From positions 1 to 32,768 of the forward strand of contig JALPYG010000008.1 of the NCBI GenBank assembly GCA_023271215.1: a stretch of 32,768 nt of DNA, in the 5' to 3' direction. Below the pieces are notes generated by a model, which saw nothing but the letters and a program-made list of their open reading frames with translations, had not been told where the DNA came from and did not search any database. Shown piece by piece: positions 28,669-32,768 of this stretch. Positions within the stretch are counted from its first letter, which is position 1. Every line of letters starts with the position of its first letter. Origin of the DNA: Dehalococcoidia bacterium. GTDB lineage: Bacteria; Chloroflexota; Dehalococcoidia; SZUA-161; SpSt-899. The position numbers were made by a program, and so were the translations under genes.

Positions 28669-29162
28669 GAGGACGGGAAAAGGGACTCACTCTGGTAGAG
28701 ATAGTGATAGCTATGACGATTGGCGCCATGGTTATTGCCCTTATGGTTCCGGCCACCCAACTGATGATGCGGCTGGGACCACGGCTGGATAACGAACTGG
28801 CGGTGGTGCACGACCTCGACATTGTGCGCCGCTGGCTTATCAGGGACGGTCAGGCTTTCCGGCACTACGAAATGCGGGACAGTCCGGAATACGTGAGGTT
28901 TCAGTGGTACGATTACACCGGCGAGCTGCCGGTGAAATATACGGTAACCTATAGCTATGATGCCGAAAACACCTCGTTGATTCGAGAGGAAAGGCGTAAT
29001 GGTGTGGTGAAATCCACCCTCAGGATAGCGAGAAACATTCTAACTGAGGAAGATGTGAAATTTGAAGTTCGGGATGGCATAGTCAGCGTGCACATTACGG
29101 CTACCGCAGGGAATGTATCTCGAAGCGCAAAAATGCTCGTTGCCCAACGGCGGGAGTATTGA
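28665..29162 (+). CDS. Prepilin-type pseudopilin
   Basis: KGLTLVEIVIAMTIGAMVIALMVPATQLMM; ATGA overlap with previous gene. Confidence 0.82.
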   Translation: MRGREKGLTLVEIVIAMTIGAMVIALMVPATQLMMRLGPRLDNELAVVHDLDIVRRWLIRDGQAFRHYEMRDSPEYVRFQWYDYTGELPVKYTVTYSYDAENTSLIREERRNGVVKSTLRIARNILTEEDVKFEVRDGIVSVHITATAGNVSRSAKMLVAQRREY

Positions 29163-30202
29163 GTATGGAGTATCGAGTATTGAGGGAAGGAAAAAGGGCG
29201 GAGGGAGGATGCCCCAAAACCCCAAACTCCAAACTGAGAACTCATGAGCAGGGGCAGGCCCTGGTATACGTCCTCATTTTCCTGATCGTGGGGTCGCTGC
29301 TGGTGGCCTTGCTGGTGCCATTTCTTGGTGCGGGTTTTCGCAGGCAGTTAGTCAATCGGGAGCAGGTGATGGCCGGCTATGCGGCTGAGGCCGGCGTAAA
29401 GAGAGTAATCGCCGATCTCATTCGCGGGGCGGATGCGCTTAGCCCTCATTATACCGTTCCTGAGATCACTGTCAATGACCTCAGGCCCATCATTGATATC
29501 CGTGCAGCGACCATTGCTCTTCCCTTCGACCAACTGTATGTCGATCCCGGCCTTCGGGACCCTGCCCTGCGCACCATTCGTGCCGGCCAGGGATACTTAA
29601 TGCGGCTTCACCATGTAAAGGAGGGCGAGCTCAGGATTAACTGGGCGTATAGCCCTGCAGGGCTGACGAAGCTGGGTATCTGGCAGGGGTTCACCGCTCA
29701 GGCTGCGGGGAGAATTTATGCTTGGCCGGAGGAGCAGCCCCTAGCGACGGCGGAGTCAATCGGGGATCACAATTATATCTCTGTGGACATTACCGACCCC
29801 GGTATTTACACTATCGTCTTTTTCAACCCGCCGGAGATAGAGGAATATCCAAACGAGGAATATCCAAACGAGGAGTATCCAAACGAGGAGTATCCAAACG
29901 AGGAGTATCCAAACGAGGAGTATCTAAACGAGGAATATCCAAACGAGGATGAGGAAATAGTCTTGATACCTAACACTGATAAGGTAACGAGTCCCTTCCG
30001 ACCCGGCGGAGGCAAGAATACCTGGATATATGTCAGGGCCCATCAGGATTACGTCATCACCGCCACTGCCGGCGGGGTCAGTGTTTCGGCCTTTGTGCGC
30101 CAGGTTCCGGGGTTCTCTGAGCCACCCGCTGGAGAATGGATGGCTGAGAGGTCGGGATGGATCACTAACCGGGTATCCATCCTCTCGTGGCGAGCTCCTT
30201 GA
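29159..30202 (+). CDS. PilX-like minor pilin/pilus-associated protein with NEEYP repeat
   Basis: EQGQALVYVLIFLIVGSLLVALLVPFLG N-terminal helix; operonic with two pseudopilins; TTG(29159) or ATG(29165) start. Confidence 0.65.
   Translation: MSMEYRVLREGKRAEGGCPKTPNSKLRTHEQGQALVYVLIFLIVGSLLVALLVPFLGAGFRRQLVNREQVMAGYAAEAGVKRVIADLIRGADALSPHYTVPEITVNDLRPIIDIRAATIALPFDQLYVDPGLRDPALRTIRAGQGYLMRLHHVKEGELRINWAYSPAGLTKLGIWQGFTAQAAGRIYAWPEEQPLATAESIGDHNYISVDITDPGIYTIVFFNPPEIEEYPNEEYPNEEYPNEEYPNEEYPNEEYLNEEYPNEDEEIVLIPNTDKVTSPFRPGGGKNTWIYVRAHQDYVITATAGGVSVSAFVRQVPGFSEPPAGEWMAERSGWITNRVSILSWRAP
29840..29944 (+). repeat. 15-bp in-frame minisatellite, 7 copies (GAGGARTATCYAAAC = E-E-Y-P/L-N)
   Basis: Seven contiguous units; four variant types (aatatcc x3, agtatcc x3, agtatct x1) read directly. 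Confidence 0.95.
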
Positions 30203-30255: not shown

Positions 30256-30705
30256 CTACCGGCACACAGACGGCGAGGCTACCAACACGGGGGCCACACA
30301 ACAACGCACCACCCGCTCGGCGATGCTACCAACGAACCAACGCGAAACACCGGATCTGCCGTGGGTACTCATAATGACCAGGTCCACCTGGTTGTTCTTG
30401 GCATAATCCAGTATCTCTTCGGCGGCCCGACCCCGGACGACGACAGTCTGCGCGGCTATGCCCTCTTGCTTCAGCTTTGCAGCTACCTGAGATAGATACC
30501 CCGTAGCTGCAGCCTCGACCTTCTTCTGGGTGTCACGGCGCCAGTCTTCGGTCGTCTCATAACCGTCAGGGGGACCGATAATCTCTACTACCCTGAGCAA
30601 GATCACCTCCGGAACACTAAATCCGGTAGCGATGGCCTTGACGTGCTTCAGAATGGACTCCGATAATTCCGAACCATCCAACGGTACCAGTATTCTTTTG
30701 TACAT
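30256..30705 (-). CDS. Universal stress protein UspA family
   Basis: MYKRILVPLDGSELSESILKHVKAIA; VDLVIMSTHGRSGVSRWFVGSIAERVVRCCVAPVLVA; ORF track start 30750, conserved start M16. Confidence 0.93.
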   Translation of the reverse strand: MYKRILVPLDGSELSESILKHVKAIATGFSVPEVILLRVVEIIGPPDGYETTEDWRRDTQKKVEAAATGYLSQVAAKLKQEGIAAQTVVVRGRAAEEILDYAKNNQVDLVIMSTHGRSGVSRWFVGSIAERVVRCCVAPVLVASPSVCR

Positions 30706-30749
30706 CCCTGCCTCCTTAATGAAACGTTCTTTCGTTGTAAGGTTACCCA

Positions 30750-30777
30750 TTGCACGAGAGACACATTATAGTATAAA
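30750..30777 (+). promoter_or_regulatory. Putative sigma70-type promoter for the tRNA-Ser fragment
   Basis: TTGCAC (30750-30755) – 16 nt – TATAAA (30772-30777), ~28 bp before tRNA start. Confidence 0.5.
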
Positions 30778-30805: not shown

Positions 30806-30844
30806 GGAGGGGTGACCGAGTGGTTTAAGGTGCCGCTCTCGAAA
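30806..30844 (+). pseudogene. 5' half of tRNA-Ser(CGA), broken at the anticodon loop (probable integration boundary)
   Basis: GGAGGGG-TG-ACCGAGTGGTTTAAGGT-G-CCGCT-CTCGAAA; expected 3' stem AGCGG replaced by TTTGC; no 3' half found in remaining sequence. Confidence 0.8.
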
Positions 30845-31049
30845 TTTGCCCTCAGGTGTCCCAAACGGTGCTTTCAGATACGAATTGGTGTTTTTGCGTC
30901 CACTGCCAAACCGTGTTTTTGAAGCTAAAATACCATCTGGTGACATCCTGTTTGATTCAGTCCGTTAGCTTTTTGTTAGCTATTTTCTAGCTTCATTCGG
31001 AATTCACAGCGCTCCTCTGAGGCTGTACCGAGAGTGCAGACTGGTAGCT

Positions 31050-31888
31050 TCAGCTTTCACGATGACCTTTACCCAAATTTTTGTATATCAGCCCTAGAAT
31101 TTCATCCTCCACACTGGGCGTGAGTTCGCCGCTCTGCACATCATTCTTGAGTTTGACCGCAGTTCGCTCAAACTCCTCAAAGGTAACGACAATCACTCCC
31201 ACTTGCCCAGGTGGGTCAGCTGTCAGAACCGGCTTAATCTCGCCGGACGGCCAGATGGCGATAGACAGCAACGTAGAAGTGGACGGTTTGCCCGGTGCCA
31301 TCATTGGCTGCCCGGTTACCATAGCCATAGCACTTGTTAGCATGGTGCCTACAAAGCCAACCATCACACCCATCTTGACCTTGAGCTCATTGCATCTCTT
31401 TTCGCTTGCCTTCAGGTCTCCTATGGCCTCGATAAGCCTCTGTCGCTCCTCGGCAAGCTCTCTTACTTGAGACGACAGATCAGTGTAGCTCAGGCCGGTT
31501 TCCTCTTTTATCTTCAGCAGCTCCATAGCTGCCGGGACGAAATCCTCCGGCAAGGTAGGGCTTACTTCTGAGCAAAATGCAATCCATTCTTCAAGCCCAT
31601 CCGGTTCAACTCCCATAGCCAGCAGCCTCTGGAGAAAGCTAAACCCCAGCCTCGCCTGAGTCAGGTCCAGGCTCTGCTTTCTTAATCTCACTGCCACGTT
31701 GTGAAGCTCGTCAATCCTACCTTTAAGCCCTAGCTCAGGGTATTTTCCCTCTCTGGCTTCCTTAAGAAAAGAATGGATATGACTGCCCCTTTGGAAACCC
31801 CGGTCTTTTCTGATACCTTGTCAGCGGAGAGACCTTGAAGATAAAAGTCCAGAACCTCCATCCTGGTCTGAAAGGGAAGCTGCTTCAT
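31050..31888 (-). pseudogene. HTH + coiled-coil protein split by a -1 frameshift near 31761-31775
   Basis: Frame A: MKQLPFQTRMEVLDFYLQGLSADKVSEKTGVSKGAVISIL; frame B continues LKEAREGKYPELGLKGRIDELHNVAVRLRKQSLDLTQARLGFSFLQRLLAMG... Confidence 0.65.
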
Positions 31889-31898
31889 CTCTAACCTC

Positions 31899-32086
31899 GG
31901 TCATTTTCTCGGTCGGTCACATAAACTTAGGCACTCACCCATTATCCATCAGGGAGGGGGAGGGGGTCACCGGTCAGATACCACTAGACCCAATTTTCAG
32001 CATCGCTAGCGGAGAGAATAGAGAACCCACTCATCTGACCGTCTATCTAACTGACCTTTCGACTATTATGACCGATCCTTCTGACC
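31899..32086. promoter_or_regulatory. Iteron/operator-like cluster of GGTCA/TGACC pentamers
   Basis: GGTCA at 31899, 31915, 31965, 31972; TGACC at 32036, 32052, 32069, 32082; CGGTCAGAT (31971-31979) is inverted as ATCTGACCG (32033-32041). Confidence 0.55.
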
Positions 32087-32181
32087 AAGTCAAGCCATCC
32101 TCCGTGGCCCCTGGGCCCGGTTAGCGCGAGCACCTCTACACGCTCGCTATGAGTTATCGAGGTAACAATATTGTCTTTTGT

Positions 32182-32742
32182 TCAGCGGAACATGTCCACC
32201 CACTCGTATCCAACTAGTGGATACGCACTCTGGATGACCAGTAGATACGACACCCTGGTGAATATAAAACTCAGATCAAGCTCATCCTCGTAGCTGCCGT
32301 CCACGTAGCGGCGTAGCAGCACTTCTGGATTCGGGCGATCATCCTTCTTGTAGACCGCCGGCATGGTTTCCTGTTCTTTACCCTGATCCAGTTCTGCTTC
32401 TGGCTCAATAAACTCGGCGAATACTTGGTCTACGGTTGAACGGGCATAACCAAAATCCTCTTTTATCTGTCCAGCACTGTACCCTTGCTCTCGCAGCTTG
32501 CGGATACTCTCCATTCTGCCAGGCCCCTCATCCGCGGGCTGAGACGGCTCCTCCGAAACAGCCTCAACCACCCCTTCCGCGAAGTTTTGCGACGACTCCT
32601 CCACTCCTTCCGCCTTGATGGACTTTGGAGCATTGGTCTTGGGCATATTGTTGGCATTGTTTTGCGGATGAGCGCCGGACATGTGTCCGCCCAGAGTTTC
32701 TTTACTCTTAAACTTCTTACCACACACCTTACAGACCAACAT
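32182..32742 (-). CDS. C2H2 zinc-finger protein with HTH-like central segment
   Basis: MLVCKVCGKKFKSKETLGGHMSGAH = C-x2-C-x12-H-x4-H; MESIRKLREQGYSAGQIKEDFGYARSTVDQVFAEF helix-turn-helix-like; SD aaggggggaaaag before ATG. Confidence 0.75.
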   Translation of the reverse strand: MLVCKVCGKKFKSKETLGGHMSGAHPQNNANNMPKTNAPKSIKAEGVEESSQNFAEGVVEAVSEEPSQPADEGPGRMESIRKLREQGYSAGQIKEDFGYARSTVDQVFAEFIEPEAELDQGKEQETMPAVYKKDDRPNPEVLLRRYVDGSYEDELDLSFIFTRVSYLLVIQSAYPLVGYEWVDMFR

Positions 32743-32768
32743 TTTCTTTTCCCCCCTTCCACCGGTGC

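Follow-up and report, generated by a model that had tools for sequence, protein, structure and literature searches.

A cut tRNA-Ser(CGA) gene as the very probable left end of an integrative element belonging to a family widespread in Dehalococcoidia

The window (the whole stretch of 32,768 nucleotides that was analysed, corresponding to the entire contig C129 of the draft genome G000) contains only the initial 39 nt of a tRNA-Ser(CGA) gene, at 30806-30844, and this half stops at the exact 3' edge of the 7-nt anticodon loop CTCGAAA (30844). The cut after CTCGAAA, noticed in the original prediction, is borne out by the sister genome G002 (isolate AH-958-E16, a member of Dehalococcoidia from the same genus as G000 and, judging from its name, probably a single-cell genome), where the intact tRNA-Ser(CGA) starts with the same sequence (39/39 nt). 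Neither ARAGORN nor Rfam called a tRNA at 30806-30844; when scored against tRNA halves, the interval reached 39, compared with 13 at most for shuffled sequence. The original prediction also held that the promoter of the gene is kept. A -10-like TATAAA is indeed present upstream of the half, but a sigma-70 scan found no strong site close to it. The features of the locus are as follows.

30256..30750, minus strand: universal stress protein gene (PF00582, E 2.9e-29), in the chromosomal left flank, outside the element
30806..30844, plus strand: displaced tRNA-Ser(CGA) 5' half, the att block at the very probable attL, cut at the anticodon-loop edge as in 59 arm copies
30838..30844, plus strand: anticodon loop CTCGAAA, the presumed crossover (overlap) region, where junction identity in sibling elements stops
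30845..30980, plus strand: left attachment arm, conserved throughout the element family (profile R1), with a 96% identical copy on contig C80
30964..30980, plus strand: GTTAGC-TTTTT-GTTAGC, a direct repeat in tandem that presumably provides the arm-binding sites of the integrase; the repeat type agrees left and right in 11 relatives
31050..31888, minus strand: element ORF A, with an HTH-like N-terminus (weak HTH/sigma region 4 matches only)
32182..32742, minus strand: element ORF B, encoding a C2H2-like zinc finger and an HTH of resolvase type (HTH_7, E 5.1e-05; zf-C2H2, E 6e-04, below its cut-off)

ORF A is interrupted by a frameshift in the window copy and is open in G002 (275 aa), so that either decay or a sequencing error may be responsible. 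ORF B is 96% identical in G002, and a 46% identical paralogue is found on contig C1 (L019 5834-6376). The contig stops at 32768 and 1.9 kb of the element is visible, which leaves little sequence behind the earlier claim of a lower gene density. The assemblies of G000 and G002 stop inside the element at positions that agree to within 1 bp (window 32768; base 1 of G002 contig C35), suggesting a repeat or another copy there. On the other side of the junction, the ORF at 29159-30202, which belongs to a cluster of pilin-like appearance, contains an in-frame tandem repeat at 29845-29955 with about seven copies of EEYPN.

Related junctions are present elsewhere in G000 and in G002. On contig C113 of G000, a tRNA-Ser(TGA) 5' half is cut at the same loop position and is followed by sequence related to that of the window, while contig C148 carries a tyrosine integrase gene (PF00589), then, 39 bp downstream, an intact tRNA-Ser(TGA), and then sucC. 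The corresponding empty site exists in G002, where the alignment of the C113 flank extends to base 39 of the tRNA and that of the C148 flank begins 3 bp upstream of the tRNA. The 39-nt 5' half is thus common to both alignments, that is, it is duplicated in the Ser(TGA) sibling element as its att block, and therefore this element brought a 5' half with it and restored the gene at the end carrying the integrase. The comparison with a relative's empty site proposed originally was accordingly possible for the Ser(TGA) sibling, which provides the clean proof, but for Ser(CGA) no unoccupied site flanked as in the window could be found. As to the Ser(CGA) element, G002 contains both junctions on separate contigs: C35, where the junction is the same as that of the window (97% identity), and C40, where the intact tRNA-Ser(CGA), beginning with the same 39 nt, is preceded by element-like, non-native sequence. 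Two Ser(CGA) junctions on separate contigs were also found in G395 and G397.

Complete elements are available from other genomes. In L177 (G394), the cut and the intact Ser(CGA) genes are 6.8 kb apart, and a full integrase of 387 aa ends 80 bp before the intact tRNA; in L122 (G214), the distance is 5.9 kb, with a decayed integrase between the two. The intact cognate tRNA at the other boundary is therefore on the same contig in L177 and L122, on a separate contig in G002 and unassembled in G000. Likewise, a PF00589 integrase is present inside the sibling element (C148) and the relatives, and the window contig ends before that region. Other complete elements, of 4.7 to 18 kb, use Thr, Phe, Trp, Met, Val and Glu tRNAs. 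Whole integrases in the relatives end 19-101 bp before the rebuilt tRNA, and those of one other subgroup overlap it by 37 bp. L180 and L182 each have, close to the integrase, an ORF that resembles an excisionase (HTH_17). In L181 (10857-12140 and 10915), the end of a different integrase is directly followed, and overlapped, by a cut Ser(CGA) half, an arrangement suggestive of insertions stacked within a single tRNA gene.

We are therefore highly confident that the junction in the window is the attL of a tyrosine-integrase integrative element, of a family widespread in Dehalococcoidia, whose attP contains the 5' half of tRNA-Ser(CGA) and which rebuilds an intact tRNA at its far end. According to this proposal, the attP of the element would carry a copy of the 5' half, and recombination across the 7-bp anticodon loop would join this element-borne half to the chromosomal 3' half. 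The loop is presumed to be the crossover region by analogy with what is known of tyrosine integrases (PMC8371274). The intact tRNA would then be found at the far, integrase end, and the old 5' half would be left against the left arm. The lack of a tRNA 3' half at the junction, which had been regarded as unusual, is real but is expected of elements that capture a 5' half, because the old half stays at attL and the gene is rebuilt at the other end. In G000 (150 contigs, 68% complete), the right end of the window's element and its integrase are absent from the assembly; hence the rebuilt tRNA of this copy, like the state of its right end and the integrase reaction itself, is something we infer rather than observe. 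The suggested extension of the contig to the right was limited by its end exactly at 32768, and the Ser(CGA) 3' half was not found in G000.

The original prediction had considered that the serine tRNA may have been sacrificed. If the insertion had destroyed the gene, UCG codons would be read by tRNA-Ser(UGA), which can read UCG by wobble, and the Ser(TGA) tRNA gene is present in G000. The search for a second intact tRNA-Ser(CGA) gave none in the G000 assembly, and neither did a 3' half appear, as such a loss would predict. However, G000 is just 68% complete, and G002, which has the same element, retains an intact Ser(CGA) on C40 beside element-like sequence and thus has both junctions; in G000 itself, both ends of the Ser(TGA) sibling are present, and complete relatives always show the rebuilt tRNA. 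A sacrificed tRNA is consequently improbable, and the tRNA-Ser(CGA) of G000 was probably not lost. The record CP070729 (L160) was considered as proof of a lost tRNA and rejected, as it is without many other tRNAs and contains Ns.

The left arm was followed across Dehalococcoidia with profile R1, a sequence-only profile of 136 positions whose training alignment includes the arm copy of the window. The profile matched 60 of the 393 Dehalococcoidia genomes. Among the 97 copies whose neighbours were examined, 44 adjoin tRNA 5' halves, 15 antisense 3' halves and 13 a tRNA-Glu cut in the T-loop, and no recognisable tRNA adjoins the remaining 25. The 5' and the antisense 3' halves are cut at the anticodon loop, with few exceptions at the loop edge. 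The former derive from Ser (CGA and TGA), Thr (CGT), Arg (CCT and TCG), Lys, Phe, Met and Trp tRNAs and the latter from Arg, Val, Thr, Ala and Met tRNAs, with Thr(CGT), Arg(TCG), Arg(CCT) and Met used in both orientations. At six loci with the same arm family (L132, L133, L134, L143, L284 and L285), the cut tRNA is tRNA-Glu(CTC) and the cut lies in its T-loop rather than in the anticodon loop; such elements have an intact gene at the opposite end. The sequence TGGTAGCGCATACCGGA beside some arms, which has no Rfam match, was considered as a non-tRNA neighbour, and this was rejected: it proved to be the 3'-terminal part of such a T-loop-cut tRNA-Glu(CTC). Within G000, the arm on C80 (6940-7075; L016, L124) is 96% identical to that of the window and is joined to an antisense tRNA-Arg(TCG) 3' half. 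The two arms differ strongly only in about the first 11 nt beside the cut, and they appear to record a recent target switch.

In addition, a search of about 85,000 species genomes for the cut-Ser(CGA) pattern returned 13 stretches, 12 of which are in records titled Dehalococcoidia or Chloroflexi. The thirteenth (L164, titled 'bacterium') is a false match, namely an intact tRNA with T after the loop.

These data also bear on the remaining alternatives. A misassembly at 30844 might be thought of in a draft of 150 contigs whose contig stops 1.9 kb further on, but the same junction in a second genome, the same arm after cut tRNAs in dozens of genomes and the homologous junctions in other families and assemblies speak against an assembly break, which we regard as very unlikely. 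A tRNA intron of group I type or a split tRNA, recalling the known bacterial tRNA introns located in anticodon loops, is refuted to near certainty by the contiguous tRNA of the relatives, the 5' half duplicated at both element ends, the lack of an exon pair, the same arm adjoining both 5' and antisense 3' halves, and the lack of any Rfam intron match at gathering score within the window. The placing of an element boundary at the anticodon loop, in contrast, is strongly supported by the conserved arm, the complete elements, the relatives with an integrase and the empty site of the sibling.

The tandem repeats at the end of the arm (GTTAGC in the window) are, on their sequence pattern, most likely the arm-binding sites of the integrase. 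The repeat type (ATTAGC, GTTAGC, TAACGCC or TAACACC) is the same at both ends in 11 of the 12 elements whose right end includes integrase sequence, the exception being the Thr element of G138, and all three clade A integrases scanned whole match the arm-binding domain PF14657, two of them near its cut-off. The idea that the element-side core half-site repeats the captured tRNA half in inverted orientation was set aside, as this is only weakly so (4.07 matches out of 11, against a permuted mean of 3.44 and a maximum of 3.90 in 2,000 permutations).

Junctions of this type are known and uncommon. Of the 3,919 islands mapped by Islander, 3,760 have a 3' fragment and 159 a 5' fragment (PMC4383910). 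The window resembles Islander tRNA-gene islands in having a displaced tRNA end fragment (30806-30844) at one boundary, and the family resembles the 5'-fragment class in its general plan, with a tRNA fragment at one end, an intact tRNA at the other, an integrase between them and crossover at the anticodon loop. It differs in that 5' halves, a minority in Islander, are the prevailing type here and come from at least nine tRNA types, in that some tRNAs are used in both orientations, and in that most 5'-type right ends have a promoter-like site. In the archaeal pTN3-like integrases, the 5' half is also used, and the tRNA is expressed from the integrase promoter (PMC8371274); integration of pTN3 disrupts the integrase gene (PMC5495485). 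The family shares with them the 5' half as att site, as established for the Ser(TGA) sibling, and a rebuilt tRNA removed from its original promoter. Unlike in pTN3, the integrase of the relatives is not disrupted, being normally whole and ending before the tRNA, and the hosts are bacterial. The Dehalococcoides islands at ssrA, tRNA-Arg and tRNA-Ala occur in the same class and are bounded by tRNA or tmRNA fragments (PMC3146451, PMC2764846). The tRNA-Arg and tRNA-Ala islands described there leave 3' fragments (PMC3146451, PMC2764846). The ssrA islands depend on serine recombinases (PMC3146451), with DsiB and a 20-bp repeat, and were rejected as the same system because recombinase and target differ: the enzyme of the present family is a PF00589 tyrosine recombinase, and its targets are tRNA anticodon or T loops. 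The junction thus adds one more member to a type already known, while the element family, with its pattern of promoters, seems to be new.

According to a review, a rebuilt bacterial tRNA retains its original promoter, with very few exceptions (PMC8371274). Capture of a 5' half separates the tRNA from its native promoter, and most 5'-type elements accordingly carry a sigma-70-like promoter sequence, which would serve the rebuilt tRNA from just upstream. This pattern emerged from right ends gathered by two integrase queries, a method that overlaps little with the arm search, in which sigma-70-like sites were scored in the 230 bp upstream of the tRNA (threshold at least 10 of 12.5; mean for shuffled sequence 8.3). 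There are 32 distinct right ends in which the element lies next to the 5' end of the tRNA; 24 of them reach the threshold and 21 contain TATAAT, whereas neither is true of any of the 14 right ends in which it lies next to the 3' end (Fisher p about 1e-6 for 24/32 vs 0/14, uncorrected for relatedness). It should be added that the idea was formed on the first dozen elements, several of which are included in the larger test set. Within one integrase clade, TATAAT is found in 8/12 right ends of the 5' type and in 0/13 of the 3' type. The typical site consists of TTGACG or TTTACA, 17 nt and TATAAT, and lies within the last codons of the integrase; in a few right ends it is located about 15 nt upstream of the tRNA instead. 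The nearest right end to that of the window with enough sequence is found in G004, a genome of the same genus. Its integrase is decayed and the 230-bp scan gave no clear sigma-70-like site there, and therefore the promoter pattern is not claimed for the window element.

For incomplete Dehalococcoidia genomes, the 136-bp arm profile flags elements of this kind, whose cut tRNAs would otherwise pass for gene losses or faults of assembly. In the usual description of bacterial tRNA islands, the tRNA stays under its own promoter, and the present family mostly does the opposite, in many species and with many tRNA types. Its sequences suggest a solution to the promoter problem, so that control of a host tRNA gene by an integrative element becomes testable. 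We lean towards the view, with some reserve, that a class-wide mobile family takes over the expression of host tRNAs, replacement of the 5' half being accompanied by the supply of a sigma-70 promoter, often in the last codons of the integrase, which 3'-capturing elements lack. If this is true, the coding sequence of the integrase would be selected both as a protein and as the promoter of a host RNA.
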